IMG/VR virus record: IMGVR_UViG_3300025949_001133
Span: 1-39,515 of that record
Origin: a virus
Length of the DNA: 39,515 nucleotides
Strand: one strand, 5' to 3'
Below are positions 1,115 through 37,303 of this stretch, one piece after another. The position numbers and the translations under genes are program-made. The notes beneath the pieces were generated by a model. That model did not search any database. It was not told where the DNA came from and saw only the letters and a list, made by a program, of their open reading frames with translations. Numbering within the stretch: the stretch's first letter is position 1; each line of letters begins with the position of its first letter.

Positions 1115-1133
1115 GGCGCCTAGGGGAAAGCCA
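1115..1133 (+). other. Second cos-like motif
   Basis: The motif reads GGCG-CCTA-GGGGAAAGC. It shares the GGCG and the GGGGAAAGC blocks with the P2 cos core but differs in the middle four bases, about 13 of 19 overall. It lies about 165 bp before the RHS start. It competes with the 734-752 site, and at most one is likely to be real. Confidence 0.2.
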
Positions 1134-1297
1134 TGGACGGACCGGATTTGAGCGTCACCTCGACGCGAACCTCAATGCTTCGTACTTATATGCATCGGGT
1201 CGGCGGCCACCTCGGCCGAAGCGGCCTCAGTTGCTGGTCACGAAAAAACCAAGACATTGCGTCTTTGCTTGGACTCGACACTTCAAGGGAACTGTGT

Positions 1298-4200
1298 ATG
1301 AAGCGTTGGTTATTTGCGCTGCTTTGCTGCCTGCTCGTCCTGGCACCTTCTGTGCACGCTCAGAACTGGAATGCCTTGGCGTACGGCAACTATCACAATT
1401 ACGTCAAATGGTCGGAAGCTGACGCAAAGTCCTTTTTGCAGGCCGCCGCCACATCGACCGCGCCCTATGGAAGTCCGACTTGTGTAGCGACTGGGTGGCG
1501 GATGCAGCCTTACCCCAATTCGCATTACAGCGCGCATCAATACACGCGTGAAATGGCTGCCGGCTCCCTCTGCACTTATTCCAATGGGAAGGCAGATTGG
1601 TTCATGCAGGGCGTATACGACGTGTACACCTGCGACAACACCACGTCATGGGTTTACGACAAGTACTACGGCAACTGGTACTGCGAAGCAGGCTACTTCT
1701 TGGCCTTGCCGAGGCCCCCGGCGAGTGGCGGCGACTGCGATTGCGATCAAGGCCGCGTCGCTACGGCCCATCCAATCGAGGTGGGCACGGGAAATATGAC
1801 GGAGTCAGCCCTGGACTTCATTAGCGGCGACGGCAGGCTGACGTTCGCCCGCCACTACAACAGCAATCCATCGCTGCCTGACGTCGGAGTGACGGGTTGG
1901 CAGAACGAATACGCCGGAAGACATCTTTATCCTATAAGCAGGGGCTCGATGCGTCCGAACGTCGTTGCTGACGATGGCTCGTCGACGTCCTCGGTGTATT
2001 CGTCGGCGGCCGCGGCCTGTGTGCAGGGCATGACGGATATTGCACAGGGCCTCGGTGGAACCGCAGGTAACAGCGCCTATACCGGAGTAACCGCCACGTA
2101 CCTTGGGAGCGATCAATGCATGCTCTCCAATGGGAGCGTCGTTCCGATTCTGAATACCGGCACGGCGCAGGTCATGGTCGGAGGTATCGCTGATGCGGGC
2201 ATCGGCGTGACGGTGCTTCGTCCCGATGGGGCTTCCTATCATTTCTCTTGCAAGCCCGGCACCTGCGTCTCGTACGGACAGAGCAAGATCGCTCTTGTGA
2301 TGAACTCCAGCGGTTATGCGCTCACCGCCGAGAACGGAGACGTTGAAAGTTACGATGCTAGCGGCAATCTGCAACAGATCGTGGGGCGCGATGGCTACAC
2401 CCGGACGCTGACCTACAACACCAGCAGTGACAGCGATGTCGCCTCGGTCAATACCGTGACGGACAGCCAGGGGCGCGTGCTTTCGTTTACCTACGACTAC
2501 AACGGACAGCTGAGCCAGCTCACGCTGCCGGATGGCACATGGGTGAAGTACGGCTACGAGCCGCTGGGAAGCCTTGCTTCGGTCGGCTATGCCGATGGCA
2601 GTTCCGTGGGCTACAAGTACGAGAACGCTAATTTCCCAAGGGCTTTGACCGCATGGGTCGATGAAAATCAGCAGACCTATGCCACCTGGACTTACGACAA
2701 CACCACTGGAGCGGCCACTGCCAGTGCATTGGCCGGCAACGTCGATACCAGCACGCTGGTCTACAGCGGTAACGCAACGACGCTGACGGACAATCTCGGC
2801 GCCCAGCGCACCTACAACTTTCAGACCATTGTCGGCGGCACTCGCCTGGTGTCGGTGAGCGGCCCGGTCTGCCGCGACTGCATGGGTCAGAACATGACCT
2901 ATGACGCCAAGGGTTTCCTGAAGACGACTCAGGATTGGAATGGTGTCACCACCAACTACAGCTTCGACGCGACAGGGATGCTGCAGCAGAAGGTCGATGG
3001 CGTGGGGACAGCGACGCAGAGGACCACAAACTTTACGTGGAATACCGCTCTGCGCGTCCCTCTGACGCGCACGGTCAGTGACGCCAATAACAGTGTGGTC
3101 AGCAGCTCCAGCTGGGTTTACAACAGCACCGGTCAAGTGCTTGCCCGTTGCGAGATCGATGCTTCGGTGGCTGGCAGCTACGCCTGTGCCGCTACAGGAT
3201 CGACGCCTGCCGGCGTGAGCCGCTGGACGTATGCCTATTGCAGTGCGGTGGATGGCACGCAGTGTCCCATCGTTGGCTTGTTGCTGAGCGTGACCGGTCC
3301 TCGTACGGACGTCACCAGCACGGCGCATTACAGCTACTACATGAGCGCCGATGAGTCCGGCTGCGGCACGGCCGGTGGCGCCTGCCACCGGGCCGGCGAT
3401 CTCTATCAAGTGACCGATGCTTTGGGCCATGTCAGCACGATGGTGGCCTACGACAAGAACGGTCGGGTGGTCCGGGTCCGCGACACCAACGGCGTCGTGA
3501 CCGATTCGACCTATCACGCGCGTGGCTGGCTGCTGACCCGTACCGTCCGCGCCAACGCCGACGGCACGCCCTCGTCAAACGACGCCACCACCCAGATCGG
3601 CTACACGCCGTATGGTGCTGTCGCCTCGGTGACCGATCCGGACGGCGTCCAGGTCACCTACACCTACGATGCCGCCCATCGCCTCACCGACATCACCGAT
3701 GCCCTGGGCAACCGCATTCACTACACGCTGGACGGCGCGGGCAACAAGACCAAGGAGGAAACCTTCGACGCCAGCAATACCCTGCGCCGTTCCCTGGCCC
3801 GCAGCTACAACACGCTGGGCCAGCTGACCGGCATCAAGGACGGCCTCAACCGCGCGGTGTTTGATGCCAGCTTTACCGACAGCTACGACGCCAACGGCAA
3901 CCTGGTGCGCAGCGCCGATGCCTTAGGGATCCAGCGCAAGCAGGGCTACGACGCCCTCAATCGCCTGGTCAGCACTCTCGACAACTACAACGGCACCGAC
4001 ACTGCCACGCAGAACACCCAGAGCGTGTTTGCTTACGGTCCGCGCGATGAGTTGCAGGGCGTGAGCGACCCGGACGGTCTCAACACCACTTACGACTATG
4101 ACGGCTTAGGTAACGCCACGGCGGTGCATAGCCCCGACACGGGGACGTCGAGCTTTGTCTATGACGCCGCCGGCAACCGTATCCAGGCCACGGATGCGCG

Positions 4201-5968
4201 CAACGTTGTCAGCCATAGCACCTACGACGCATTGAACCGCATCACGGCCACGACCTATCCGACCAGCGCCGAGAACATCAGCTACCGCTACGACGAGGCG
4301 GACAGCGTCACCGGCTGCGTAGGCTCCTATCCGGTCGGTCGCCTGACCAGCCTGGTGGAAACCGCCGTCACGACGGTCTATTGCTACGACGCTCGCGGCA
4401 ATGTAGTGACGAAGCGCCAGACCCAAGGCACGAACGTCGACACGGTCAGCTACACCTATACCCTGGCCGATCGCCTGGCGAGCATCCATGCGCCGGATGG
4501 CACGGCGACCCAGTACGGCCGTGACGGAGCGGGCCGCATCAACGCTGTGACCGTGCTGACGCCGGGCACCGGTGGTGCCGGTGCCGGCAACGTCGTCACC
4601 AACGTCACCTACCTGCCGTTCGGCCCGATCCTCAGCTACACGCTGGGCAACGGCCAGACCATCACGCGCACCTACGATGCCAACTACGCCGTGACAGACG
4701 TCGTCAGTCCGGCCCTCAACCTGCACTTCGCCCGCGACGCGATGGGCAACATCACGGCGCTGGGTAATGCGTCGGGCGCCAATCCGGCGATCGAGACCTA
4801 CAGCTACGACCCGCTGTATCGCCTCACGGGCCTCAAGGATGCCCAAGGCCAAGCCGTTGAGGCCTACACCTACAACAAGACGGGCGACCGCCTCAGCAAG
4901 GCGAGCAATGGCCTGGCGACCGGCGCGTATGGCTATCAGACGGGCACGCACTGGTTGACCAGTATCGGCAGCAGTGCTCGGACGTACGATGCCAACGGCA
5001 ACACCACGGGTAGCTCAACCGGTGGCGACACCTTCGGCTACGGCTACGACGACCGCAATCGCATGGCGGTGGTGCAGCGGAACGGGCAGACCGTTGCCAA
5101 CTATGTCTACAACGCCATCGGCGAGCGCGTGGCCAAGGCGGCCACAGCCAATCAGCGCTTCGCCTACGATGAAGGCAGCCAGCTCATCGGCGAGTACGGT
5201 ACGACTAGCCGCAGCTATGTCTGGCTAGACAACTTGCCTGTGGCGATGGTGGATACGAATGGCACCATCAGCACTGTGAGCTATGTGCACGCAGACGCCC
5301 TGGGCACGCCACGTACAGTCACTGACGGCACGGGATCCGCGGTTTGGCAGTGGGGCTATCCGGTAAATTCGTTTGGCGAGAAACCTCCTTCAACTTCTGG
5401 AATGGTCCTCAACTTGCGCTTCCCGGGCCAGTACTACGATGCCGAATCGGGCCTGCACTACAACGTTCAACGACACTACGATCCGGCTGGTGGGCGTTAC
5501 GCTCAAAGCGATCCGTTGGGTATCGAGCCTGGCCTGTCTACGTATTCCTATGTTAATGGAGATCCGATTGACCACGTCGATCCTCTTGGGCTGCAAGAAG
5601 TACTCATGAGGCCGGCGCCGTGGCTTGAACCACTCACCCGCGTCATTGGTTCCGATAACAGTAAGATTCCTTGGGCTGAGCGGCCTCAAACGCGAATATC
5701 TCCGCGCACGAGCAGCGGAAGCAAGATGAAAAATGACGTGCCAGATTGGGCGCGTGGCTTCGTTCCAAAAAACGGTGAAACGCCCAATGAATTCGCCAGA
5801 CGGGTATGTGCCGAAAGAGGACAAGAGCCAGGCAAAGGCCCCGGATCTAATTTGAGTAAAATTAGTAAATGGGGTAACTCAAGTTTTCAGAAGACACCCA
5901 AGCCATCTTTGCTCGACATACTCCATCAATTATTCGATCCGCCGAGACAAGACCCAGACATGATTTGA
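1298..5968 (+). CDS. Secreted RHS/YD-repeat polymorphic toxin
   Basis: The start at 1298 is preferred over the in-frame ATG at 1133. It has a Shine-Dalgarno AAGGGA 7 bases upstream and opens a clear Sec signal peptide (MKRWLFALLCCLLVLAPSVHA), giving 1556 residues. After an N-terminal Cys-rich region comes a DUF6531-like segment around GTGNMTESALDF. Many YD/RHS repeats follow, of the types YDANGN, YDALNR and YTYD. The RHS core ends in the diagnostic block RYAQSDPLG ... DHVDPLGL at about residue 1432. RHS shells encapsulate a C-terminal toxin released after this block. The tail here is about 124 residues, with A+T content higher than the core, and contains a W-x-RG..PKNGE ... GKGPGS ... KWGNSSF stretch seen after other RHS cores. 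Its enzymatic activity is not known to me. The next gene is probably its immunity protein. Confidence 0.92.
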   Translation: MKRWLFALLCCLLVLAPSVHAQNWNALAYGNYHNYVKWSEADAKSFLQAAATSTAPYGSPTCVATGWRMQPYPNSHYSAHQYTREMAAGSLCTYSNGKADWFMQGVYDVYTCDNTTSWVYDKYYGNWYCEAGYFLALPRPPASGGDCDCDQGRVATAHPIEVGTGNMTESALDFISGDGRLTFARHYNSNPSLPDVGVTGWQNEYAGRHLYPISRGSMRPNVVADDGSSTSSVYSSAAAACVQGMTDIAQGLGGTAGNSAYTGVTATYLGSDQCMLSNGSVVPILNTGTAQVMVGGIADAGIGVTVLRPDGASYHFSCKPGTCVSYGQSKIALVMNSSGYALTAENGDVESYDASGNLQQIVGRDGYTRTLTYNTSSDSDVASVNTVTDSQGRVLSFTYDYNGQLSQLTLPDGTWVKYGYEPLGSLASVGYADGSSVGYKYENANFPRALTAWVDENQQTYATWTYDNTTGAATASALAGNVDTSTLVYSGNATTLTDNLGAQRTYNFQTIVGGTRLVSVSGPVCRDCMGQNMTYDAKGFLKTTQDWNGVTTNYSFDATGMLQQKVDGVGTATQRTTNFTWNTALRVPLTRTVSDANNSVVSSSSWVYNSTGQVLARCEIDASVAGSYACAATGSTPAGVSRWTYAYCSAVDGTQCPIVGLLLSVTGPRTDVTSTAHYSYYMSADESGCGTAGGACHRAGDLYQVTDALGHVSTMVAYDKNGRVVRVRDTNGVVTDSTYHARGWLLTRTVRANADGTPSSNDATTQIGYTPYGAVASVTDPDGVQVTYTYDAAHRLTDITDALGNRIHYTLDGAGNKTKEETFDASNTLRRSLARSYNTLGQLTGIKDGLNRAVFDASFTDSYDANGNLVRSADALGIQRKQGYDALNRLVSTLDNYNGTDTATQNTQSVFAYGPRDELQGVSDPDGLNTTYDYDGLGNATAVHSPDTGTSSFVYDAAGNRIQATDARNVVSHSTYDALNRITATTYPTSAENISYRYDEADSVTGCVGSYPVGRLTSLVETAVTTVYCYDARGNVVTKRQTQGTNVDTVSYTYTLADRLASIHAPDGTATQYGRDGAGRINAVTVLTPGTGGAGAGNVVTNVTYLPFGPILSYTLGNGQTITRTYDANYAVTDVVSPALNLHFARDAMGNITALGNASGANPAIETYSYDPLYRLTGLKDAQGQAVEAYTYNKTGDRLSKASNGLATGAYGYQTGTHWLTSIGSSARTYDANGNTTGSSTGGDTFGYGYDDRNRMAVVQRNGQTVANYVYNAIGERVAKAATANQRFAYDEGSQLIGEYGTTSRSYVWLDNLPVAMVDTNGTISTVSYVHADALGTPRTVTDGTGSAVWQWGYPVNSFGEKPPSTSGMVLNLRFPGQYYDAESGLHYNVQRHYDPAGGRYAQSDPLGIEPGLSTYSYVNGDPIDHVDPLGLQEVLMRPAPWLEPLTRVIGSDNSKIPWAERPQTRISPRTSSGSKMKNDVPDWARGFVPKNGETPNEFARRVCAERGQEPGKGPGSNLSKISKWGNSSFQKTPKPSLLDILHQLFDPPRQDPDMI

Positions 5969-5977
5969 GGAGGAGAG

Positions 5978-6478
5978 ATGGAAGTATTTCCTGTCGAGAT
6001 TGCCTTAAGGGGTGAGACTATTTGGCTTGGCTGGGTTTCCCTAGATGATGGCGATGAGTTCTTCTTGACGAATAATGGATGCTTAATTTTTTCGTGTAGC
6101 GGAAAAAATGGCCTGATGCAAGAAGCCCTAAAGGTATTTCCTGATGCCAAGTTTGACGTTGAGAGTTTTTTTGATTTTGATTCCATTATTGAAGGATTGG
6201 ACGGGAGCGTTGTTCTTGAGGATGATTTCGCTCTAAATGTATGGAATCTGCTGACCGATCTTTACCACACGTTTGGCGGTGAAGATAAAATGTTTTTTGA
6301 ATCTCATCTAGAGGTGTATTCCCGACTATTCTCTCAAAGCGAAGTTGCGCCGTTAGTTGATGTGCAAAAGGTCCAGTTGTCGAAGCATGACAAAGAAGCA
6401 GTGCGAGAGGTTCTTCTGGAAGGGATTGAACTTTTGACTCAAAAAATCAGGATTGCAAAGGCAGCTCAAAGTCACTAA
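5978..6478 (+). CDS. Probable immunity protein for the RHS toxin tail
   Basis: A 166-residue acidic protein that starts 9 bases after the RHS stop, with a very strong Shine-Dalgarno (GGAGGA at 5969-5974). The spacing and orientation are those of a toxin-immunity pair. Its base composition is strikingly A+T-rich next to the phage genes, which is common for exchangeable RHS tip/immunity cassettes. The N-terminal half is rich in aromatic and acidic residues (for example DDGDEFF and ESFFDFDSI) and the C-terminal half is helical and charged. There is no signal peptide, so it would act in the cytoplasm. I do not recognise the family. The immunity role is inferred from position only. Confidence 0.75.
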   Translation: MEVFPVEIALRGETIWLGWVSLDDGDEFFLTNNGCLIFSCSGKNGLMQEALKVFPDAKFDVESFFDFDSIIEGLDGSVVLEDDFALNVWNLLTDLYHTFGGEDKMFFESHLEVYSRLFSQSEVAPLVDVQKVQLSKHDKEAVREVLLEGIELLTQKIRIAKAAQSH

Positions 6479-6648: not shown

Positions 6649-7652
6649 AATGATCTAAAAATAAAGACTTTTGCTGCCAGAACATCATTCAGTCCGAGCA
6701 TACGAACCATCATCGGTTCGATTTCGTTTTCTCTGAACACATCTCTCGCTTTGCCTACGTCGCCGAAGCCCCCGGCATTCGTAGGAATCATCCCCAGCAG
6801 CTGCGGCGGCACGCGATGCGCGGCAAGGATGTCATCCCGGCTCGCATTCTTGATCGACGCAAAGTCATCTTTCGCCGCCACCTCGCTGATCGGGATCAAC
6901 TGCAAGCCGTCTTTCTTGCCGCTCGGCGCGTACATGAATAGATTGCGGAAATTCCCCGGCCCTTTCGCGCCTTTGAGCGCCTTCCGCAAGTTGTCCACGT
7001 CGTCGGGATTCTGCGCCGGGTCCGTCATGTACAGGATGAAACCCGCATGCGACCCGTTGTCGTAGTACTTGCGCCGGAACAGCGTGGCCGAGCGATTGAG
7101 TTGCGCCGCATGCAGCGCACTTAGGTATTCGGGGATGCCATAGATCTCTTGCCGCACATCCGGCGCCTTCATCTGCACCACCGGCCGTTCGAACTGGAAC
7201 GCCTGCCCGTTCAGCGGCGCGAACCAGAACGCCCCCTCTTCCACACCGCGCCGGGTGAATAGCGACGGTGTGTGCTTGGTCCGCAGCAGCCTGCCCGACA
7301 GCGCCTTCTCGCATTCCAGATACGCCTGGCCAAAGGTGAGATAGTCCATGGCAAACGCCTCGAACTCGGCTACCGACAAGTAGCGCGACGGCTGGAACGC
7401 AGAAACCAGCAGGTTCCGCTTCACATAGATGGCCGACGAGTGATGCGGCGCAATCTGCAACATGTTGGCTAGACCGGTCAAACTCACCGGTGGCTCATAC
7501 CATCGACTGTTGTGCCATACCTGCACGTAATCCAGAAGATTGGACCGGTCGATGGGTTCCGGATCGCCGAAGGTGAACGCCTCGAACCGTCCACCGGCCG
7601 TAGTGTCCTTGATTATCTCGCGGTGCTCCACGCGGCGCTTGCGCTTGCTCAT
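6642..7652 (-). CDS. Q: Phage portal protein (P2 gpQ family)
   Basis: Portal subunit of the capsid vertex through which DNA is packaged and ejected. The start is ATG at 7652, overlapping the terminase stop as TAATG with GGAGA upstream. This gives 336 residues, close to the 344 of P2 gpQ. Family features are an N-terminal RxVEHREI...FTFGDPEPID segment, the LANM..APHHSSAIYVKRNLL block, the YLTFGQAYLE block, and a C-terminal HRVPPQLLGMIP..AGGFGDV..AR.VF..NEIEPM region. The last residues end within the perfect hairpin, but the length suggests the C-terminus is complete. It forms a two-gene leftward late operon with terminase P. Confidence 0.95.
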   Translation of the reverse strand: MSKRKRRVEHREIIKDTTAGGRFEAFTFGDPEPIDRSNLLDYVQVWHNSRWYEPPVSLTGLANMLQIAPHHSSAIYVKRNLLVSAFQPSRYLSVAEFEAFAMDYLTFGQAYLECEKALSGRLLRTKHTPSLFTRRGVEEGAFWFAPLNGQAFQFERPVVQMKAPDVRQEIYGIPEYLSALHAAQLNRSATLFRRKYYDNGSHAGFILYMTDPAQNPDDVDNLRKALKGAKGPGNFRNLFMYAPSGKKDGLQLIPISEVAAKDDFASIKNASRDDILAAHRVPPQLLGMIPTNAGGFGDVGKARDVFRENEIEPMMVRMLGLNDVLAAKVFIFRSFT

Positions 7653-9412
7653 TAGAAAATCTCCATGACGTTGTGGCTGTGGGCCGCACGGCCCTCCAGC
7701 GGTTCGTAAATGAGGGAGTGCATGACCGACCACGCGAGGTCTGCGTGCCCCACGTCTGCCGAGCGACTGGCGTCATAGGTCACATGGCGACCGCTGGCCG
7801 TCATCGTCTTGCGGATGGCCATGAAGGCCGCGGCGAGATCGGTCCAACCGGCATCCCACTCCAAGCGGCCCTTGCCCATGACGTCCTGGGTCTTCATGAC
7901 CATCTGAGCTTTGGTTTCCGGGGAGTACTGGATCGCCCGCGCCATCGGGAAGAACTGCTTCACCAGCTGATAGACGCCGGTGCCCATGCCGGTGGTGTCG
8001 ATGGCGATGTCCACGACGCGATAGCGGTCGCACAGCTCCTTGATGTTGCCGGCCTGTGCATCGAAGTCCTGCCCCGGCCATTGGAACTTTTCCAGCACGC
8101 GGAACAGGTCGCGCTGCCGCGTGGGCAGCGCATTGACCGTGCAGCCAGAAGGATCGCCGCCCGCCGCGCCCTTCGACGGATCGAAGCCAATGGATACTTC
8201 GGCATCGCCGACCGGCCGCGGCGCGTACACGCGGAAGTCGTCCCAGATGTCCCAGCTGTCCACCATGCAGCGTTTGACCAGGTTGAACGGGAACACCGAC
8301 GCGCTGTCGTCAATGAACGCACACATGAAGAGCTGCTGGAACTCGTCATCGCCGTACTCCAGCCGCAGTTGGTCGATGTCGAAGAGGTCGCAGCCGCCGG
8401 CCAATGCGTCGATCACCGACACGATCTGGCGCCACTGCCCATCCGCACAAAAAAGGCCCGTAGCGAGCGCCGCGTGCGAGATATCGATATCGACCCGGTC
8501 GGCTTTCGCTCGCCCCTTGTTGAACTGCGCGCCCGACCAGAACGGGTAAGCGTCATGCGTCAGGGACGACGGCGTAGAGAAATAGGTCTGCCGCCACTTC
8601 TTGTGGCTGGACATGCCCGACGCGACCTTGCGCAGCGTCTGGAAGCTGTGGACCCAGAAGTATTCGTCGAAGTACAGGTTGCCGTGATAGCTCTGCGCCG
8701 TGCGTGAGTTGGTCCCCAGGAAATACAGCGTGGCATCGTTGGGCAGGATCAGCGGATCGCCCTTGAACTCGATCTCGGCCGCATCTTTGGCGAACTGCGC
8801 CAGGTACTGCCGGAACACGTCCGCCTGCGCGCGGCTCGCCGACAGGAAGATCTGGTTCCTGCCCGTCTCCATGGCATCGACCAGTGCTTCGCGAGCGAAG
8901 TACCAGGTCGCACCAATCTGGCGAGACTTGAGGATGTTGCGGATGCGCCTTTCCAGGCCTTGTTCGTGCCAGGTGCGCTGGTAGGCGAACAGCGAATCGA
9001 GAAAGGCTTCCCGTAGCCGCGCGGCCTGCTCCGGGCTGTACTCGTTGCGTACCGGCTTGCGCCGCGGCTTGGCGTTGCGGTTGACCACGGCGGGGTTGAG
9101 GTCACCTTCGTGCCCGCCTGGCGCTTCGTAGCGGCGCACTCGCGCCAGGCGCTCAATCTGCCGCGTGAGCAGATCGATTTCCTTGTAATCGCCGCCGCTC
9201 TTGGGCTCTTTCATGATGAGCTGGCACAGGCGCACGTCCAGCTGCATTTCCACGCGATCGATGGAGCGTGCGGACGCCCATGCGTCGCGCTGCTTCCACG
9301 ATTCCACCGTGGCGCGGGGCAGCACCAGGTGCTGCGCAATCTCGGTTACGCCCCAGCCTTGAAAGAACAGGCTGCGCGCGTGTCGTCGGGGGTCCATCGT
9401 CGGCATGAGCAT
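7652..9412 (-). CDS. P: Terminase large (ATPase/nuclease) subunit, P2 gpP family
   Basis: Packaging motor protein of up to 586 residues (P2 gpP has 590). In order there is an N-terminal helix-turn-helix (about residues 20-45, GVTEIAQ...TVESWKQRD), the ATPase with its Walker A-like loop SRQIGAT (163-169) and Walker B LYFDE (246-250), and a nuclease domain opening with an Asp in GFDPSKG. Three in-frame ATGs cluster at the start (9412, 9406, 9397). The outermost is given here. The 9397 start (MDPRRHAR) would align best with P2 and leave a short leader after the predicted late promoter -10 (TACGCT, 9425-9420). It is transcribed away from O. Confidence 0.95.
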   Translation of the reverse strand: MLMPTMDPRRHARSLFFQGWGVTEIAQHLVLPRATVESWKQRDAWASARSIDRVEMQLDVRLCQLIMKEPKSGGDYKEIDLLTRQIERLARVRRYEAPGGHEGDLNPAVVNRNAKPRRKPVRNEYSPEQAARLREAFLDSLFAYQRTWHEQGLERRIRNILKSRQIGATWYFAREALVDAMETGRNQIFLSASRAQADVFRQYLAQFAKDAAEIEFKGDPLILPNDATLYFLGTNSRTAQSYHGNLYFDEYFWVHSFQTLRKVASGMSSHKKWRQTYFSTPSSLTHDAYPFWSGAQFNKGRAKADRVDIDISHAALATGLFCADGQWRQIVSVIDALAGGCDLFDIDQLRLEYGDDEFQQLFMCAFIDDSASVFPFNLVKRCMVDSWDIWDDFRVYAPRPVGDAEVSIGFDPSKGAAGGDPSGCTVNALPTRQRDLFRVLEKFQWPGQDFDAQAGNIKELCDRYRVVDIAIDTTGMGTGVYQLVKQFFPMARAIQYSPETKAQMVMKTQDVMGKGRLEWDAGWTDLAAAFMAIRKTMTASGRHVTYDASRSADVGHADLAWSVMHSLIYEPLEGRAAHSHNVMEIF

Positions 9413-9457
9413 GCGCGACAGCGTAGGGACGCCCCGTCAGTGCTTCGCGCTGCCTTC

Positions 9458-9481
9458 GTTCTGTTGCATGGCGTGCAGAAC
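9458..9481. promoter_or_regulatory. Late activator dyad GTTCTG-N12-CAGAAC (P/O)
   Basis: Perfect 6-bp arms lie 12 bp apart in the 148-bp gap between the divergent P and O genes. The same 6-12-6 dyad occurs in front of V (19664-19687). P2 late promoters are activated by Ogr, which binds a TGT-N12-ACA dyad centred near -55. On the P side a TACGCT hexamer lies 47 bp from the centre, matching that geometry. On the O side the equivalent hexamer is GATGCT, and a better TATCAT is found at 9537-9542. One site could serve both operons. Confidence 0.7.
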
Positions 9482-9560
9482 AAGCGCGCATTGCCGCGCT
9501 TTGCGTGCGTCCCGATGCTGGCCGCCTACCGACTCCTATCATCTGCACCGAGGTCCACCC

Positions 9561-10385
9561 ATGCCGGCACCGACCAAGAAGTCCAAGAAGTTCCGCATCT
9601 TCACCGAGGGCGCCACCGTCGATGGCCGCGTGGTCGAACGCGGTTGGATCAGGGACATGGCCGCCACCTATGACCCGGCGAAGTACCGCGCCGGCATCAA
9701 CATCGAACACATCCGCAGCGCCCTGCCCGACAGCCCGTTCAAGAACTACGGCTTCGTGGATGCGTTGGATGCCACCGAGAACGCCACGGGCAAGCTGGAA
9801 CTGTTCGCCACCATCACGCCGAGCGATGACCTGGTGAAGCTGGTCGGCTCCATGCAGAAGGTGTTCACCAGCGCCGAGGTGTCGCCGAAATTCGCCGACA
9901 CGGGGCGCGCCTACCTGGTCGGCCTGGCCGTCACCGACACGCCGGCCAGCCTGGGCACGGAAATGCTCAAGTTCACGGCCCAGCATCCGGAGTCCAGTCC
10001 GCTCACCGCACGCAAGCAACACCCCGACAACGTCTTCGGCGAAGCGACCGAGACGGTGATCGAGTTCACCACGGAGGACGCGCCCAAGCCGAGCGTGCTG
10101 GCGAAGGTGCGCGAGATGTTCCGCCGCAAAGACGCATCCGACGACGCACGCTTCACCGACCTGGCCGCCGCCATCGAAGAAGTGGCCGAGCATGGCGAAA
10201 CGCAGAGCACCCAGACCGCGCAGATGTTCCAGACCGTGGACGCCATCGTGGCGCAGCACAAGCAGCGCGTGGATGAACTCACCCAGCGCCTGGATGCCAT
10301 CGAGCAAAAGTTCCACACCACGCCCGCGCCGGCCGCCAATCGCCCGCAGGCCAACGGCCCCGGCCTGGTGCTGACCGAGTTCTGA
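9561..10385 (+). CDS. O: Capsid scaffolding protein/protease (P2 gpO family)
   Basis: The start at 9561 (MPAPTKKSKKFRIFTEG) is where family similarity begins. The open frame upstream runs through the promoter region. The 274-residue length is close to the 284 of P2 gpO. The N-terminal half is the serine protease that matures the capsid. The family signature ERGWI.DMA..YDP..Y.A.IN.EHIR carries the likely catalytic His (H50), and the Ser lies in TSAEVSPKF (S104). The C-terminal half is a charged, coiled-coil scaffold (EEVAEHGETQST ... QRLDAIEQ). It is followed directly by the major capsid gene, as in P2. Confidence 0.93.
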   Translation: MPAPTKKSKKFRIFTEGATVDGRVVERGWIRDMAATYDPAKYRAGINIEHIRSALPDSPFKNYGFVDALDATENATGKLELFATITPSDDLVKLVGSMQKVFTSAEVSPKFADTGRAYLVGLAVTDTPASLGTEMLKFTAQHPESSPLTARKQHPDNVFGEATETVIEFTTEDAPKPSVLAKVREMFRRKDASDDARFTDLAAAIEEVAEHGETQSTQTAQMFQTVDAIVAQHKQRVDELTQRLDAIEQKFHTTPAPAANRPQANGPGLVLTEF

Positions 10386-15091: not shown

Positions 15092-15546
15092 GCACCGATC
15101 CGCTACGGCAGTGGGAAGGATGGGCCGGCGCGCTGCTGGCCAAGCTCGAGGCGCCTAAGCGGCGTGCCCTGGCCGTCACCATCGCACGGGAGCTGCGGCG
15201 CTCCCAACAGCAGCGCATCGCCGCGCAGCACGATGCGGAGGGCTCGCCCTTCGTGCCACGCAAGCCGCGGCTGCGTGATCGGCGCGGGGCCATCCGGCGG
15301 CGCGCGGCGATGTTCACCAAGCTGCGCACTGCGAAGTGGCTACGTATGTCCGGTACCGCCGATGCCGCCGAAGTGGGTTTCGTTGGCCGTGTCGCGCGCA
15401 TCGCGCGCGTCCACCAGGAAGGACTACGCGACCGTGCTGCGCAAGGCGAGCCTCAGATTCGCTATCCCCGACGCGCAATGCTCGGGTTGACGCCCTCCGA
15501 CCGCGAACGTGTCCGCGACCTTCTGCTCGAACACCTCACCGGTTAG
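15088..15546 (+). CDS. S: Tail completion protein S (P2 gpS family)
   Basis: About 152 residues (P2 gpS has 150). Two adjacent GTG codons at 15085 and 15088 could start it. The 15088 one gives the GTGA overlap with R. Family features are L..PKRRALAVTIARELRRSQQQRI..Q...EGSPF.PRKP.LR...G.I.R.AMFTKLRTAKWLR and RIARVHQ.GLRDR. Its stop codon overlaps the stop of the oppositely oriented SIR2 gene by 3 bases. This is the last gene before the cargo insert. Confidence 0.92.
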   Translation: MSTDPLRQWEGWAGALLAKLEAPKRRALAVTIARELRRSQQQRIAAQHDAEGSPFVPRKPRLRDRRGAIRRRAAMFTKLRTAKWLRMSGTADAAEVGFVGRVARIARVHQEGLRDRAAQGEPQIRYPRRAMLGLTPSDRERVRDLLLEHLTG

Positions 15547-18500
15547 CTTCGCTCAACAAGATCGATAAGACGCAAATAGCGTGGATCTGAGGTCAAATCT
15601 TGCTCAGCTTCCGCAATCAGGGCCAGCACCTTAGGCAATTCGTACGATGTAAAGGTGGGGACCTGAGGCGTAATTCTGCTCATCAAATCCAGCACCGCCT
15701 CAGGAAAAAGAGTGGTGATCGGCGTTTCGTCATTGAACTCCCGGGCGAACCGGTAGAACAGCTGGTCTTGCACATCCAGCGGCACCAAGAATTTTTTAAC
15801 CGATTCATAGACAGCTGGGAAACTATCGCCCGCATCATCAAGGAGGCTAATCCAAGCGCGCGTCGCTGCAGATGTTCTGTACCGACGCTCTCTGGGCCAG
15901 TCCTCGTTGATTAAGGGAATGACATGCTTGACCCAGCCGTTTTCGTTGCCCTGTCCAACATTCACTAACCAGGAAATGAATCGATTCCGGGTACCGTCGG
16001 ACATAGCTCGAATGACCGAACGCATTTCGCTCGATGAAAGACCTCTCGATTCATTCGCATGTGCCAACCGCATGAAGCCCAGCCATTGGGCGGCCACCAA
16101 TGACATATCACGATCCCACGAAAACCCTTCGATCCACGGAAAAAGATCAAGCAATAGCGGTTTGATGACCTCTAACAAGGAGTCCGAGCACACTTGATCG
16201 CTACGAAGGAACCCGTTCCAAGCGGGCTCGGAAGCTTGATGTTCGAACGCCAACATTGGAACTAGACGCCTTTCAGTCCAAACAGGGTCAACGAACATGA
16301 GCCAGTTAAGGTTTGCACTCGCTATCGACACCGCATGATCTGAACCCTCACCCGACGCCGTAAAGAGGCGCTCGACACGAGACTTGATATGATCTGGAAT
16401 TAGTGAGTGAGCCTCCCGCCCCTCTCCTGGCATCGCATCGAAAAGAGCCAGAGCACACATACCAATGGGACTGTTGATCGCATGATCGAACGTGCGCCGG
16501 GACTGTTGAATGACCTTACCCCCCTGACTGACTTCGCCCAGGCCACTCCTCGCTGCATCTTCTCCACCACTAAAGATGCCATCAACAATGTGATCGTAGA
16601 CCGTCCAACCAAGATCATTATCAAACTCAAGAACCGTGGCCAATTTTTGTTCGAGCCAGCGACTCAAAGCGTGGCGTAGATCAGCAACAACCGCATGCGG
16701 GAGTCTCGCCAATCGGTTCAGGAATACGCGTCTCAGCCTGGGCGTAATGTCTGCGGGAAGGTCATTAATCATGGACGACCAGAACGCCTGGGGATAGTCG
16801 CCAGCCCTGCCAGCAATCGTTAGCGCCGATAACGCTTTACGCGGATTGGCTTTCACCAAACCTGTGAAGGGCCGTTTCTCGGTGAAGCTGCCAAAGTCCC
16901 GCCCTAGGTCCTCCCTTGCCCTGGAGACTACTTCGTTCACAGGAATGTCCAAGACGGAATCTGGCTTCTCGTCCGTACCCACCCAGCCCGTTCGAGAGCC
17001 CCTTGTGACTACCGTGGAGTTCGCCCAGTCATCGCTCCAATCAGAAATGCCCATGATCATCCTTGCGAGCAGCTCACTGCGATCTGTCTCCAGTTCGCAA
17101 CCCTGCAGTTCGAGATATCGGGCATACCGGGCGGCGAAACCATTCCGCAACCTAGGAAACTCCTCCTCTGACAAGTGAGATGGCCGATCAGGACCACAAA
17201 GAATGCGGTCGGTAAGCTGGCCCCGATTCTCTTGAGAGAACTCCGTCCACCGATCCGCCAGCAAGAAAAGAAGCTCACGGACAACATCAGAATCCCAAAA
17301 TGCCTGCTGATCCAAGGACAAGACTTCTTTGGCGATATGGTTGGCGTCGAAGATGCCCACTTTGTTGAACGCATACAACTTTAGCTTTCGAAAGAAGAAT
17401 CTGTCCGTCGCTGGCCAACTCGCTGCATGCGCCCTCGCCAGCCCTGGCCAGATGGCGGCCATTCGATCAAAAAGCTGGACAAACCAAGCCATGATCTTTG
17501 CGGCTTGCGTGATTTGTTCTCTCCCATCGACCTCACGCCCCGGATAGCAGGTCGGTGCACGAAAGTAGACGGTCTCGATATCTACTAATAGCCCAGATGC
17601 AACGTTGAGCTGAACCTCCAGGACGCGAAGTGCTTGTGGCAATACGTCATCCGAGACGTCGAAATCTTGATTGTGTCTTTCAAGAAAGACCACTTCGAAC
17701 TGACCAAGGTCACGAAGATGGACTTCGTCCCAAGATACCGATGGCGGCTTAGACTGCCCCAATCCATACGGTGAACTAATGTTCAACCGTGGTGTTGTAG
17801 CCCTGCGTAATTCTCGCATGACACTCGCCGTCCACCCCTCCGCATCGACCCGCCTCTTCAAGTCGAACCATTCGCCATCCCATTGACGACTGCGAGGGTC
17901 TCGATGATGTTCAAGGATGAGATTCCAGATATGACGAGCACGCTCTCCAAGAGCCCTCGAATGCTCTACTTGCCACTCGATCTGCTGCTGTAGTCGCGGA
18001 TGCAATCCTTTCTGCCGAATGGCCCACCAAGCCAGCACAGGACTGTCAATGGACTTACCAACCCAATTAATAAGATGGCCAAGCCTTATCGGCACCGCCT
18101 CGAAACCATCCGCCTGCCGGCCACCCAGCCGATGAGATGCATGTGGATTGTCGTCTTCGACGCGCCAGACTAAGAGATTGTCGTTATTGATACCCTGTCT
18201 GTGATCATCGTCAGATATGTCTCTCAGATCGTCATCGAGTCCGTAAGCGGCCGAGGGGTCGAAGACCTCTGCATCATTACCATAGCTGCGACTCTCCTTG
18301 CCCGACCGGACATTCGCATCCATTACGCAAACCCATTCTGGATGAGGTGTCGGATTAGCCTCCGAGAATAGTCTCGCCCCCTGCACTGAGCGAAGGACAT
18401 GAGCAACCTGACCACGCTCATAGGGAGCGAGATCCTTCGGATTCTGCTTGCTCTTATCGATTATGCGAGCACGCCACCCCCGGGGATCGTCAGCGCGATC

Positions 18501-19352
18501 TGCCCAAGCCTCCATGCTTTTCCAGAGATCCGAATGATCGGAATAGGCTATAGCGGTAGCACCACGGTCACGCCACTTGGCTTCAATCTCCTCGGGAAGA
18601 CCGCGATCAAAGGCATAGAGCCTAGATTTGTCATACTGACCGTCATGGTTAAGGCCCTGAAGAAGATACTTGATTGGTGGGTCTTCGGCCTGATAGCCGA
18701 CCAAAACGACGGTATATCGTTCAAGAAGGTGTTTGATGAAGTTGGTGGCCCATCCCTCAGAGAGGTACGCACGTCCAAAGTCTGCGCTGCTCAACACGTA
18801 GGGATGACTTTCGGAAGCCGGCCCCACCAGTCTCCCGTGGAGATATGTGATTCCCTCGATCTTTGAACCGAAGTTCAGATCAGGAAAAGCTGGGGGAACG
18901 TGCAAGGCCAAATGCCCGCTGCCACCCCCGATCTCAAACAATTTGTCGAAGTTCGTCGTGACAATCTGCGGCATACCGGCCGAGCTCGAAGATATCCGCT
19001 TAATTAGACGATGCTCGCGCCCAAGATCTTTGCCTTCTAGAGGGGTACTCAGCCGCTCCGTGACCAATGCGTTAACTTCATCCTTGCCGTATTCAAGGTG
19101 AAGGAGATTGAAGATTTGATCGAGGGGGACATTCGCTGCAGATTGACCGTCGAGCCATGGCTGAAATGCAGCCATGATTTCCGAGTCGGCTGACGGACCA
19201 AAGAACTCTATGACGTACCTAGCAAGGCCGAGAAAAGTCGGCATCCCAGATGGGAACGAAACTCCAGCTCCGCATAGAAATACAACGCGACCAGCATCAC
19301 AGCGCTCCAGAAGAACGTCTGGCAAGGAAGGACCATCGGGATGAAATCTCAT
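15543..19352 (-). CDS. SIR2-domain protein, probable anti-phage defence effector
   Basis: A 1269-residue protein. The N-terminal ~270 residues are SIR2-like: VVFLCGAGVSFPSGMP (about 23-38, NAD-binding), VTTNFDKLFE (131-140, with the Asn/Asp of the NAD pocket), YLHG with the likely catalytic His (about H172), and VVLVGYQAEDPP (215-226). Sirtuin-like defence proteins (DSR1/DSR2, Thoeris ThsA) use such domains to deplete NAD during infection. The remaining ~1000 residues are mostly helical with no motif I can assign. The whole resembles SIR2 proteins carrying a DUF4020-type C-terminus, with low certainty. Base composition is clearly less G+C-rich than flanking phage genes. It lies opposite to the late operon at the P2 orf30 cargo position, with its own upstream region. 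The defence role is inferred. Confidence 0.85.
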   Translation of the reverse strand: MRFHPDGPSLPDVLLERCDAGRVVFLCGAGVSFPSGMPTFLGLARYVIEFFGPSADSEIMAAFQPWLDGQSAANVPLDQIFNLLHLEYGKDEVNALVTERLSTPLEGKDLGREHRLIKRISSSSAGMPQIVTTNFDKLFEIGGGSGHLALHVPPAFPDLNFGSKIEGITYLHGRLVGPASESHPYVLSSADFGRAYLSEGWATNFIKHLLERYTVVLVGYQAEDPPIKYLLQGLNHDGQYDKSRLYAFDRGLPEEIEAKWRDRGATAIAYSDHSDLWKSMEAWADRADDPRGWRARIIDKSKQNPKDLAPYERGQVAHVLRSVQGARLFSEANPTPHPEWVCVMDANVRSGKESRSYGNDAEVFDPSAAYGLDDDLRDISDDDHRQGINNDNLLVWRVEDDNPHASHRLGGRQADGFEAVPIRLGHLINWVGKSIDSPVLAWWAIRQKGLHPRLQQQIEWQVEHSRALGERARHIWNLILEHHRDPRSRQWDGEWFDLKRRVDAEGWTASVMRELRRATTPRLNISSPYGLGQSKPPSVSWDEVHLRDLGQFEVVFLERHNQDFDVSDDVLPQALRVLEVQLNVASGLLVDIETVYFRAPTCYPGREVDGREQITQAAKIMAWFVQLFDRMAAIWPGLARAHAASWPATDRFFFRKLKLYAFNKVGIFDANHIAKEVLSLDQQAFWDSDVVRELLFLLADRWTEFSQENRGQLTDRILCGPDRPSHLSEEEFPRLRNGFAARYARYLELQGCELETDRSELLARMIMGISDWSDDWANSTVVTRGSRTGWVGTDEKPDSVLDIPVNEVVSRAREDLGRDFGSFTEKRPFTGLVKANPRKALSALTIAGRAGDYPQAFWSSMINDLPADITPRLRRVFLNRLARLPHAVVADLRHALSRWLEQKLATVLEFDNDLGWTVYDHIVDGIFSGGEDAARSGLGEVSQGGKVIQQSRRTFDHAINSPIGMCALALFDAMPGEGREAHSLIPDHIKSRVERLFTASGEGSDHAVSIASANLNWLMFVDPVWTERRLVPMLAFEHQASEPAWNGFLRSDQVCSDSLLEVIKPLLLDLFPWIEGFSWDRDMSLVAAQWLGFMRLAHANESRGLSSSEMRSVIRAMSDGTRNRFISWLVNVGQGNENGWVKHVIPLINEDWPRERRYRTSAATRAWISLLDDAGDSFPAVYESVKKFLVPLDVQDQLFYRFAREFNDETPITTLFPEAVLDLMSRITPQVPTFTSYELPKVLALIAEAEQDLTSDPRYLRLIDLVERS

Positions 19353-19663: not shown

Positions 19664-19687
19664 GTTCTGAACTGCTCTCGACAGAAC
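19664..19687. promoter_or_regulatory. Late activator dyad GTTCTG-N12-CAGAAC (V operon)
   Basis: It has the same perfect 6-12-6 dyad as between P and O, with unrelated spacer sequence. It is placed 37 bp before the V ATG at 19724 and should serve the long V-to-D tail operon. With the centre near -55, as in P2, the -10 would fall at 19720-19725 (CAGCAT) and the start point next to the ATG at 19733. The leader would then be almost absent. Confidence 0.7.
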
Positions 19688-19723
19688 GGCTTCTGGGTGC
19701 ACAGCAAGACGGCCTTCCGCAGC

Positions 19724-20314
19724 ATGCACTACATGCACGAAGACGCCCTCGTCAACTTTATTCGCTACGGCACCATCCGCTCGGTGGATGTGAGCCATGC
19801 ACGCGTGACGGTCGCGGTCGGAGATCTCACCACCAGGCCCATTCCCTGGATCACGCCGCGAGCCGGCGCCACGCGCACTTGGTCGCCGCCCTCTCCCGGC
19901 GAGCAGGTTATTGTGCTGTCGCCTGGCGGCAACCTGGGCGCCGCGATTGCACTGACGGGCATCTTCTATGACCGATACACCAAGCCCGCCGAAGGCACCG
20001 CCGACAACGTGCTGCTAGCCTTCGGTGACGGCGCGGTGCTGCTCTATGATCACGTGGCTCACCTGCTCAAGGGAACGCTCCCCGCCGGCGGCCGCGTAGA
20101 ACTCACCGCGCCCGACGGCTTCCGCCTGGTCGGCGACGTCGACGTCGATGGCGCCCTCCACGTGACACAGGCGGCCACGTTCGACCAGACGCTATACGCG
20201 TCGCAGGACATCACCAGCGATGCCGACATCAAGGCGGGCGACATCAGCCTGCGTCAGCACCCGCACGACCAGGTGCAGCCCGGCCCTGGCCGCACCGGCA
20301 AGCCGCAGCCATGA
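19724..20314 (+). CDS. V: Baseplate spike/assembly protein V (P2 gpV family)
   Basis: About 196 residues (P2 gpV has 211), starting at 19724 or 19733. The core is IRYGTIRSVDV..ARVTV......PIPWITPRAG.TRTWSPPSPGEQV.VLSPGG.LG.A..L.GI, the OB-fold of the baseplate spike. The C-terminal end has HPHDQ, the HxH-type metal-binding tip seen in P2 spikes. The spike punctures the outer membrane. It is the first gene of the second late operon. Confidence 0.93.
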   Translation: MHYMHEDALVNFIRYGTIRSVDVSHARVTVAVGDLTTRPIPWITPRAGATRTWSPPSPGEQVIVLSPGGNLGAAIALTGIFYDRYTKPAEGTADNVLLAFGDGAVLLYDHVAHLLKGTLPAGGRVELTAPDGFRLVGDVDVDGALHVTQAATFDQTLYASQDITSDADIKAGDISLRQHPHDQVQPGPGRTGKPQP

Positions 20315-24577: not shown

Positions 24578-25759
24578 ATGTCCACCGCCTACCACCACGG
24601 CGCGCGCATCCAGGAAGCCAGCGATGCCCCGTACGCGCTCAAAACCGTCTCTACTGCCACCATCGGCTTCGTGGCCACCGCCTCGGATGCCGATGCGGCC
24701 GCCTTCCCGCTGGACACGCCGGTCCTGCTCACCCAGCCCAAGGCCGGCCTCGCCAAGGCCGGCACCAAGGGCACCCTCGCCCGGGCGCTCCAAGCCATCG
24801 CCGACATCGTGACCTGTCCGGTCGTGGTCGTGCGTGTCGCCGAAGGCGTGGACCCGGCGGCGACCACCTCCAACGCGGTGGGCACCGTCAACGCGGAAGG
24901 GCGCTATACCGGCCTGCAGGCGTTGCTCACTGCGGAAGCGCGCACGGGTGTGCGGCCGCGCATCCTCGGCGCGCCGGGCCTGGACACCAAGCCGGTCGCC
25001 GACGCGCTGGTCACGGTCGCCAAGCGCTTGAAGGCCTTCGCCTACGCCACCTGCGACGACTGCGCCACTCTGGCCGACGCCAAGACCTACCGCGAAGGCT
25101 TCGGCGCGCGCGAGCTGATGCTGCTGTGGCCGGACTTCACCACCTGGGACACGATGGCCAACCGCGGAGCCAAGGCACTGACGGTGGCCATGGCGCTCGG
25201 CCTGCGCGCGAAGACCGACCAGGTCGCCGGCTGGCACCGCGTGCTCTCCAATATCCCCGTGGACGGCGTGATGGGCATCAGCGCCGACGTCTACTTCGAC
25301 TACCTCACCGAGGGCACCGACGCCGACCTGCTCAACGAAGCGGGCATCACGACCCTGGTCAAGCGCAACGGCTTTCGCTTTTGGGGCTCGCGCACCTGCG
25401 ACACCAGCACGTACGTGTTCGAGTCCTACACGCGCACCGCCCAGGTGGTGGCCGACACCATCGGCGAGGGCGTGTTCGAGTACAGCGACAAGGCCATGCA
25501 CGCGAGCCTGGTCCGCGACCTGATCGATGCGATCAACGCCAAGCTGCGCGCGCTCACCCGCGAGGGCGCCCTGCTCGGTGGCCGCTGCTGGTTCGATCCG
25601 TCGTTGAACGAGACCGCTGACATGCAGGCAGGCAAGCTCGCGCTCAACTACGACTACACGCCGGTGCCGCCGCTGGAAGACCTCACGCTGCGTCAGACCT
25701 TCACCGACGTCTACATCGCCGATCTCAAGGCGGCGATCACCTCCACCAACAACGCCTGA
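24578..25759 (+). CDS. FI: Contractile tail sheath protein (P2 gpFI family)
   Basis: 393 residues (P2 gpFI has 396). Family blocks are YHHGARIQEA..A...L..VST..IGFVATA.DAD...FPLDTPVLLT, LLTA...TG..PRILGAPGLDT, the GFGARELMLLWPDF block, and the late NEAGITTLVKRNGFRFWGSRTCD. Sheath subunits polymerise around the FII tube and contract at infection. P2 has a separate promoter and the fun(Z) gene in front of FI. Here FI follows the fibre chaperone after 3 bases with neither. Confidence 0.96.
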   Translation: MSTAYHHGARIQEASDAPYALKTVSTATIGFVATASDADAAAFPLDTPVLLTQPKAGLAKAGTKGTLARALQAIADIVTCPVVVVRVAEGVDPAATTSNAVGTVNAEGRYTGLQALLTAEARTGVRPRILGAPGLDTKPVADALVTVAKRLKAFAYATCDDCATLADAKTYREGFGARELMLLWPDFTTWDTMANRGAKALTVAMALGLRAKTDQVAGWHRVLSNIPVDGVMGISADVYFDYLTEGTDADLLNEAGITTLVKRNGFRFWGSRTCDTSTYVFESYTRTAQVVADTIGEGVFEYSDKAMHASLVRDLIDAINAKLRALTREGALLGGRCWFDPSLNETADMQAGKLALNYDYTPVPPLEDLTLRQTFTDVYIADLKAAITSTNNA

Positions 25760-31636: not shown

Positions 31637-32023
31637 TTATGCCGAGGGATGATTCGACAACCACTCGGCGTATTCGGGAACGGCGCGCTTCATCTGCTGT
31701 TCCAGCCACACCAATTCTTCGGCGGGCTTGCTTTGCTCCCAGGCGAGGATGAACTCGACCAGACGCTTGCCCTGCGTGGTGGTGGCCTTGGGAACGACGG
31801 CATCACGCCGTGCGCTACCGGCATCGAAAAGCAGCCAATCCATCGACAGCCCCTCTTGCTCGGCAATCTCGCTCATGATCTGGACCGGCGGGGTGTTGCG
31901 CTTGATCCAGTTGCTGATGGCGCTGGGCCCCACCCCCAGGCGCTCGGCAAGCGCCATATTGGTGGGCGTCCCCAGGACTTCGCCTAACCGCTGAATAATC
32001 TGGTCGGTCTTCAATCGGGCCAC
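31637..32023 (-). CDS. CI-type lysogeny repressor (Phage_CI_repr-like)
   Basis: The GTG at 32023 is chosen because similarity starts there (VARLKTDQIIQRLGEVLG) and an AAGGGG ribosome binding site lies upstream. The longer frame to 32161 runs through the operators. The product has 128 residues. The N-terminal helix-turn-helix (TPTNMALAERLGVGPSAISNWIKRNT, about 19-44) has the Phage_CI_repr fold pattern with the NWI..N.P recognition segment, followed by a ..MDWLLF motif. The C-terminal ~65 residues are helical. There is no S24 peptidase domain, so it should not be RecA-cleaved. It is transcribed away from the early operon, and its likely operators lie just upstream. Confidence 0.85.
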   Translation of the reverse strand: MARLKTDQIIQRLGEVLGTPTNMALAERLGVGPSAISNWIKRNTPPVQIMSEIAEQEGLSMDWLLFDAGSARRDAVVPKATTTQGKRLVEFILAWEQSKPAEELVWLEQQMKRAVPEYAEWLSNHPSA

Positions 32024-32026
32024 TCC

Positions 32027-32047
32027 AATTTCACCCCTTATGAAATT
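32027..32047. promoter_or_regulatory. Repressor operator O1, AATTTCA-N7-TGAAATT
   Basis: A perfect 7-bp inverted repeat with a 7-bp spacer right in front of the repressor start. Together with O2 it defines the shared ATTTCA-N7-TGAAAT pattern. Its position over the repressor leader implies autoregulation (inferred). Confidence 0.75.
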
Positions 32048-32062
32048 TGAGCGAAATACCCG

Positions 32063-32091
32063 TTGAAATTTCACTCTGTGTGAAATAGCAT
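32063..32091 (+). promoter_or_regulatory. Early promoter (rightward)
   Basis: -35 TTGAAA at 32063-32068 and -10 TAGCAT at 32086-32091 with a 17-bp spacer. The start point would be near 32098, leaving a leader of ~25 bases before the first early gene. Operator O2 lies inside the spacer. Confidence 0.7.
32068..32086. promoter_or_regulatory. Repressor operator O2, ATTTCA-N7-TGAAAT
   Basis: The same dyad as O1, with a centre-to-centre distance of 40 bp (about four helical turns). It fills the spacer between the -35 and -10 of the early promoter, so a bound repressor would block RNA polymerase. Confidence 0.75.
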
Positions 32092-32123
32092 CTTCGAAGT
32101 GCTCAACTTCGTGATCGTAACTC

Positions 32124-32375
32124 ATGCGCATAGCTAACTCCCTTGCTGGCCCCAAGCCCACGACCTATGCGCCTCGCAGCCAGGAAAAGCGGCCGCGGGT
32201 CAGCGTGGGCTTGCCTCCCGACCAATTCACCACATGTGTCGCTCTTTCACGAGCGGACCAGTGCAGCGTGGCGTCCATCGTGCTGGCGGTGTTCCAGCAC
32301 GGACTGCCTAGCTATCTGTTATCGCGGGAGGCTCAGCGCGAGGAAGGATGCGTAGCGCCGGTGTACGAGGGTTGA
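32124..32375 (+). CDS. First early gene, small putative regulator
   Basis: 83 residues. The region KRPRVSVGLPPDQFTTCVALSRADQCSVASIVLAVFQHGL looks like a small ribbon-helix-helix-type or Cox-like DNA-binding protein: a basic strand, then two helices. The match is weak. As the first gene of the early operon it is in the usual place for a Cro/Cox antirepressor that favours lytic growth (inferred). No good Shine-Dalgarno is seen before the ATG. The stop is 4 bases before the Ogr-like start. Confidence 0.55.
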   Translation: MRIANSLAGPKPTTYAPRSQEKRPRVSVGLPPDQFTTCVALSRADQCSVASIVLAVFQHGLPSYLLSREAQREEGCVAPVYEG

Positions 32376-32378
32376 ACG

Positions 32379-32705
32379 ATGACCTCGAACAGAAATTCCA
32401 TGCCCTGCCCCGAATGCGGCGGGCGGGTGCGCACCCTCACCTCCCGTCTGCTGAGCGACAACGTGCGCGAGATTTACTTCGACTGCGTCAATGAGAACTG
32501 CCTGTGCCGCTTCGTCGGCCATCTGGGCATCGTGCGCACCCTGATCCCGCGCCTACCTCCTTCGGACGACGTGTCACCACCGATGGTGGAACGGCGAGCC
32601 AACGACATCGTCATGCCGTGCACCGCCGAGGTCACCGCACCATCCATCTCGGTGGCGCCACCGGCTCCCCCGGATCACACCCCCGTACTGCCTGCGCTCC
32701 ACTAA
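32379..32705 (+). CDS. ogr: Ogr/Delta-type zinc-finger late transcription activator
   Basis: 108 residues. Cysteines at 10, 13, 36 and 41 give the C-X2-C-X22-C-X4-C spacing of the Ogr/Delta family. They sit in the family context MPCPECGGRVRTLTSR...VRE.YFDC.NENC...FV.HL.IVRTL.P. Such proteins bind P2-type late promoters upstream and contact RNA polymerase. The C-terminal ~50 residues are a Pro-rich tail not present in P2 Ogr (72 aa). Its targets here are probably the GTTCTG-N12-CAGAAC dyads. In P2 ogr is after D in a late operon, whereas here it is the second early gene. Confidence 0.88.
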   Translation: MTSNRNSMPCPECGGRVRTLTSRLLSDNVREIYFDCVNENCLCRFVGHLGIVRTLIPRLPPSDDVSPPMVERRANDIVMPCTAEVTAPSISVAPPAPPDHTPVLPALH

Positions 32706-36400: not shown

Positions 36401-37303
36401 ATGTTTCCCCGTAACTTGTCCCTGTTCCGCTTCGGCCCCGTGCCTTCCCACGACATCGTCGCCGACCTCGCGCGCCACCGCGTGCGTCAGCCTGGCCCCC
36501 AGGAGCTGACCACGCGTGGCTTCGGCTCACCCTATGGCCTGGCCGATGACCGTCTCACCGTCACCGCCAACGGCTGCACCGGCTTTGTGTTCGTGCAGGC
36601 CGAACGTGTGCTGCCGGCCGCATCGGTCCGTGATGCGGTCATCCGGAAGGTGCAGGCCATCGCCACGGAGGAAGGCCGCAAGGTTGGCCGCAAGGAGCGC
36701 AAGCAGCTGCACGAAGATGTGGTGCAGATGATGCTTCCGCAGGCGCCGGTGACGTCCCGGCGCATTGCCGGCTGGATCGACCCCAAGCACGGCTGGCTGG
36801 TCATCGACACGCCGAGCCGACGCTATGCGGAGCTGACCCTGTCGGCGCTACGCGAGGCGTTTGGTTCCTTCCCGGCCGTGCCGCTGGCTCCCACGGAGGC
36901 GCCGCGCTCGCTGCTGACCGACTGGCTGGCCAATGACACGCTGCCAGCGTTGCTGGGGCTCGGCGACGAGTGCGAACTGCGCGATCCCGCTACGGCCACC
37001 GGCGCCCTCGTGCGGTGCCGCCGGCAGGCGTTGGATGCGGACGAAATCAAAGAGCATCTACGCGGCGGCAAGCAGGCCTTTCAGGTGGGCTTGGTGTTCG
37101 ATGACCGACTGAGCCTGGTGCTGTCGCATGACCTGGTCATCACGCGCCTGCGTCCGCTCGACATCCTCACCGCCGACCAGGCCGATCCGGAAAGCTATGA
37201 AATGCAGGTGGAAAGCGATATGGCCCTGGCCACGTTGGAGGTGCGGCGTCTGCTGGCTTTCATCGAGACCACCTTCGCCCTCGCCCGCCCCACGGAGGCC
37301 TGA
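36401..37303 (+). CDS. rdgC: RdgC, recombination-associated DNA-binding protein
   Basis: 300 residues, the same size as E. coli RdgC (303). Family features: an N-terminal F.NL.L.RF segment, GF..P (RGFGSPYG), an ...ER.LPA..VRDAV..KV..I...EGRKVGRKE...L.EDV...LLP.A-type helical block, W.D...G.LVIDT.S...AE, and a C-terminal L...HDLVITRLR.LD. RdgC forms a ring on duplex DNA and limits RecA-driven exchange. In phages it may shield replicating genomes (inferred). Confidence 0.93.
   Translation: MFPRNLSLFRFGPVPSHDIVADLARHRVRQPGPQELTTRGFGSPYGLADDRLTVTANGCTGFVFVQAERVLPAASVRDAVIRKVQAIATEEGRKVGRKERKQLHEDVVQMMLPQAPVTSRRIAGWIDPKHGWLVIDTPSRRYAELTLSALREAFGSFPAVPLAPTEAPRSLLTDWLANDTLPALLGLGDECELRDPATATGALVRCRRQALDADEIKEHLRGGKQAFQVGLVFDDRLSLVLSHDLVITRLRPLDILTADQADPESYEMQVESDMALATLEVRRLLAFIETTFALARPTEA

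Follow-up and report, generated by a model that had tools for sequence, protein, structure and literature searches.

Two conserved dyads as probable operators of an Ogr-type late activator in a P2-like phage

The late promoter regions of a P2-like phage, an IMG/VR virus record of 39,515 bases (analysed over its full length and referred to below as the window), contain two symmetrical dyads that are very probably the operators of the phage's own Ogr-type late activator, a diverged variant of a known switch. This reading draws on the placement of the dyads, their distance from predicted -10 elements, their conservation around freely varying spacers, and their co-occurrence with a distinct subfamily of Ogr proteins. 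The preliminary description had already proposed that these are Ogr-type sites, and the same lines of evidence support that proposal, with binding itself presumed. The elements and genes that bear on the argument are the following:

9458-9481, no strand: putative Ogr-type operator 1, centre 9469.5, core GTTCT-N14-AGAAC, common to the divergent P and O promoters
19664-19687, no strand: putative Ogr-type operator 2, centre 19675.5, core GTTCT-N14-AGAAC, just upstream of V
9420-9425, minus strand: predicted -10 of the P promoter, TACGCT, nearly invariant across 33 unique contexts
9491-9496, plus strand: putative -35-like hexamer of the O promoter, TTGCCG, with a 17-bp spacer to the -10
9514-9519, plus strand: predicted -10 of the O promoter, GATGCT
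19720-19725, plus strand: predicted -10 of the V promoter, CAGCAT, replaced by GAAGCT in three divergent relatives
7652-9412, minus strand: P, terminase large subunit, probably leaderless, with its ATG 57.5 bp from the centre of putative operator 1
9561-10385, plus strand: O, capsid scaffold/protease, with a leader of ~35 nt that carries a Shine-Dalgarno-like CGAGG
19733-20314, plus strand: V, baseplate spike protein, probably leaderless, with its ATG 57.5 bp from the centre of putative operator 2
24578-25759: FI, tail sheath
31637-32161: CI-type repressor
32379-32705, plus strand: Ogr/Delta zinc-finger activator, C-X2-C-X22-C-X4-C, motif ERRANDI, the presumed binder

The gap between P and O contains GTTCTGTTGCATGGCGTGCAGAAC (9458-9481), and the region upstream of V contains GTTCTGAACTGCTCTCGACAGAAC (19664-19687). 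These are the only two perfect matches to GTTCTG-N12-CAGAAC in the 39,515 bases, and their spacers are unrelated, so that this part of the preliminary description stands as written. Judged from one genome alone, the repeat is weak evidence and only mildly unexpected; there are 22 perfect 6-12-6 dyads of any sequence in the window, and some 6-12-6 arm is repeated in 13.5% of 200 order-1 Markov simulations. The case for non-randomness stems from the place of the dyad and from its conservation. No copy lies upstream of FI (24578), which is separated from G by 3 nt.

The surrounding genome also encodes tail tube FII, hub D and integrase, along with several less typical genes. An RHS-repeat protein of 1611 residues (1133-5968), an unusual cargo for a P2-like phage, is encoded near the portal and terminase genes and is followed by a small ORF without a Pfam match (5978-6478). 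The early region encodes an RdgC-family protein (36401-37303). The variable accessory slot between S and V is occupied here, immediately upstream of the V dyad, by a minus-strand gene (15543-19352) for a protein of 1269 residues, with a SIR2 domain, that matches the anti-phage defence family Dsr1 (PADLOC, 304 bits). No RNA family was detected in the window with Rfam.

Promoter spacing was taken from alignments. At all three late promoters, a -10-like hexamer (nAnnnT, which places A and T at -11 and -7, respectively) is found 44.5-49.5 bp from the dyad centre. This geometry predicts starts 56-57 bp from the centre, at ~9413 for P, ~9526 for O and ~19732 for V; the P2 starts that serve as the yardstick lie at 55.5-56.5 bp. 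The P and V promoters lack a good -35, with V retaining only a TG at that place. A poor -35 is expected of an activated promoter, and its lack at P and V removes one internal check on the predictions.

In each of the 17 unique V sites, 57.5 bp separate the dyad centre from the V start codon. Most P sites show the same distance to the P start codon, and in a few it is 1 bp shorter. Because the start codons lie so close to the predicted starts, about 57.5 bp from the centre, and no Shine-Dalgarno sequence fills the space left before them, the P and V messages are probably leaderless. A leaderless V message is not new, given that the P2 record annotates the V start point at the V start codon. In more distant relatives with TTGT-type sites (L107-L152), a -10-like hexamer precedes the P start codon by ~6 nt, from which it appears that leaderless terminase messages may be widespread.

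The preliminary description had suggested scanning relatives upstream of P, O and V, and it is the relatives that decide against chance. In a wider set recruited with the terminase (loci not de-duplicated), GTTCT-N14-AGAAC is present at P/O in 59 of the 62 loci with terminase identity of at least 65%, compared with 1 of the 106 loci below that level. The three exceptions comprise one record that appears twice and has a single mismatch (L010 and L079) and one fragment (L085). The close IMG/VR relatives all retain the dyad with differing spacers, with one mismatch in L010 and L011. Altogether, there are 33 unique P/O contexts, all with terminase identity of at least 68%, and 17 unique V contexts, and the spacers are free to vary. 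Among 22 related records scanned whole (~515 kb), 21 contain the 5-14-5 core; a pattern of ten specified bases would be expected to match ~0.5 times over this length, and a reversed control pattern gives zero matches in the same records. The longer of these records have two core matches each, at P/O and V, and every record of the clade longer than 35 kb carries one or two dyads. Outside the IMG/VR records, the genome contigs scanned for O yielded distant relatives only (Pantoea, Halomonas), and a class-wide genome sample yielded distant terminases only, the best being 58% identical.

The same comparison changes the definition of the motif. Among the relatives, the innermost G-C pair of the two 6-bp arms is not constant, and the right arm reads GAGAAC, AAGAAC or TAGAAC; the 6-12-6 dyad of the preliminary description is real in the window, but the conserved motif is GTTCT-N14-AGAAC. 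The invariance of these ten letters in the collected sites arises by construction because the pattern itself was used to collect them, and accordingly it is the counts of presence and absence that carry evidential weight. A divergent relative, G400 (L209), has one GTTCT-N14-AGAAC dyad and a V operator that is one base shorter (GTTCT-N13-AGAAC), so that some drift in the spacing of the half-sites seems possible.

Frequent occurrence elsewhere in phage genomes had been named as an observation that would speak against an operator; in the related phages, the core matches reported in the scanned and Ogr-recruited records are all at P/O or V. Satellites and other elements that might share the operator were sought with a 16-base form, GTTCTGTA-N8-TACAGAAC, over IMG/VR, which returned 26 stretches. 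Some of these have P2-like genes, and there the matches are confined to P/O and V; the remaining stretches have no P2-like or Ogr gene (tblastn) and are about as numerous as expected by chance, so no such element was retained as a candidate.

The presumed binder, encoded at 32379-32705, matches PF04606 (Ogr_Delta) with 52.1 bits against a cut-off of 26.3 and has the cysteine spacing of an Ogr/Delta activator, C-X2-C-X22-C-X4-C. After the zinc finger, the Ogr proteins of the dyad clade share an RRxNDI motif that the other aligned Ogr proteins lack. Every record above 20 kb with an Ogr of this subfamily also has the dyad, and this includes the records of that length recruited only via the Ogr protein. 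The association is not independent evidence of contact because operator and protein are both inherited with the structural genes, and common descent alone could account for the linkage. A search of a PDB copy turned up no solved structure for an Ogr protein that might account for the proposed recognition of TTCT.

Several other explanations of the dyads have to be weighed. It is quite improbable that they are operators through which a CI-like repressor, or another DNA-binding protein of the phage, silences the late promoters in the lysogen. Repressor sites also take the form of symmetric dyads beside promoters, and a CI-type repressor is encoded in the window (31637-32161), but this gene has candidate operators of its own, ATTTCA-N8-TGAAAT at 32027-32046 and 32067-32086, a pair that is likely to represent the repressor operators and differs from the late dyad. 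The late dyad is not repeated beside the repressor gene, stays clear of the -10 and -35, and lies at the distance at which the activators of P2 and 186 act. An equally low probability is assigned to a binding site for a host activator, rather than Ogr, that was co-opted by the phage clade. The tie between dyad and Ogr is indirect, and the 4.7 Mb of a Pantoea genome include the 6-12-6 pattern three times; nevertheless, phages with other Ogr subfamilies have TTGT-N12/13-ACAA at the same position, and a fixed host factor would not predict a site that switches together with the Ogr subfamily.

Less probable still, and close to negligible, is a recombination or insertion landmark, which is brought to mind because the V dyad borders on the variable S-V slot: upstream of the dyad the relatives do not align, and in this phage the accessory Dsr1-like gene is found there. 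The P/O dyad, however, has no adjoining accessory genes, recombination leaves the fixed distances to the -10 and the ATG unexplained, and an essential promoter beside a variable slot would leave just such a boundary of conservation at V. A chance repeat, for which the simulations on the single genome left some room, is just as remote; it is refuted by the counts in the relatives, with conservation in the unique P/O and V contexts despite free spacers.

Under the preferred reading, that of an Ogr operator, an Ogr dimer (or two Ogr domains) encoded at 32379-32705 would bind the two GTTCT half-sites of a site centred ~56-57 bp upstream of the start points and would recruit the host sigma70 RNA polymerase to weak promoters with the -10 at 44.5-49.5 bp. 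From the P/O dyad, this would activate transcription of the terminase and portal genes leftward and of the capsid genes rightward, and from the V dyad, transcription of the whole baseplate-tail operon, so that Ogr would switch on the head, packaging and tail genes. Compared with the TTGT-N12-CCA or similar sites of P2 and 186, the predicted operator has a TTCT half-site and a spacing two bases wider.

A further step, which we regard as possible rather than probable, is that the DNA specificity of this Ogr subfamily is orthogonal, i.e. the protein reads GTTCT half-sites with a spacing wider by two bases and fails to activate late promoters of the TTGT type. If so, these phages would be isolated from satellites and helpers that exploit P2-type activators, the activator position would be tied to the start codon, and the terminase and spike messages would be leaderless across the clade. 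The analysis provides a predictable operator for an Ogr subfamily whose targets are not described in the literature searched, as well as three promoter predictions at near single-base resolution. The occurrence of TTGT-N12, TTGT-N13 and TTCT-N14 at one homologous site, along with diverged Ogr proteins, offers a set for mapping the residues that read the half-site.

The closest yardsticks are P2 and 186, in which the genes occupy the same positions, P and O are served by a single site, and the zinc-finger activator belongs to the same Pfam family as that of the present phage. In P2, one activator site lies between P and O; measured from the centres of TTGT-N12-CCA-like sites, the P and O starts are annotated at 55.5 bp and the V and F starts at 56.5 bp; in 186, one B site serves both promoters and the pJ start is 57.5 bp from the site centre. 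The suggestion that the single P/O site could drive both directions fits the arrangement but describes nothing special to this phage, being annotated in both the P2 and the 186 records. In P2 and 186, the half-site is TTGT, the spacer is 12 and the second arm, CCA or CAA, is imperfect, whereas here the half-site is TTCT, with a spacer of 14 and perfect 5-bp arms. P2 also has a 23-nt P leader and a separate F promoter with a further Ogr site; in the window, V to D follow one another as a single gapless run of genes, so that this promoter has no counterpart here, and the late layout departs from the four promoters of the P2 type. The exact TGT-N12-ACA does not occur in the regions of P2, 186 and Smp131 searched, and on these sequences the P2 and 186 sites are better written TTGT-N12-CCA/CAA.

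Less related P2-like phages have TTGT-N12-ACAA (34 contexts) or TTGT-N13-ACAA (11 contexts) in the same place upstream of P (L112, for example, has ~55.5 bp between the site centre and the P start codon), with another half-site letter, another spacing and an Ogr of another subfamily. The Ralstonia phages phiRSA1 and phiRSY1, P2-like phages with an Ogr homologue, have a published late motif, TGTTGT-N13-ACAACA, which resembles the present sites in being a long symmetric dyad upstream of late operons and differs in its TTGT-type half-site, its spacer of 13 and the four late promoter regions (PMC5694545). Thus, the longer symmetrical arms emphasized in the preliminary description hold in comparison with P2 but are not unique, as both of these groups demonstrate. 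For Stenotrophomonas phage Smp131, TGT-N12-ACA-like late sites were reported, with a predicted site common to P and O and an Ogr homologue (PMC3931495). GTTCT-N14-AGAAC is absent from the Smp131 genome, and its Ogr lacks the RRxNDI motif.

With a GTTCT half-site and a spacer of 14, the dyad departs from the TGT-N12-ACA consensus and its TTGT half-site, which makes it a variant, not a standard member, of the Ogr/Delta-dependent late promoters. Given that sites of the P2/186, TTGT and phiRSA1/phiRSY1 types occur at this same place, the dyad appears to take the place of the usual Ogr site, with one letter of the half-site changed and the spacing widened.
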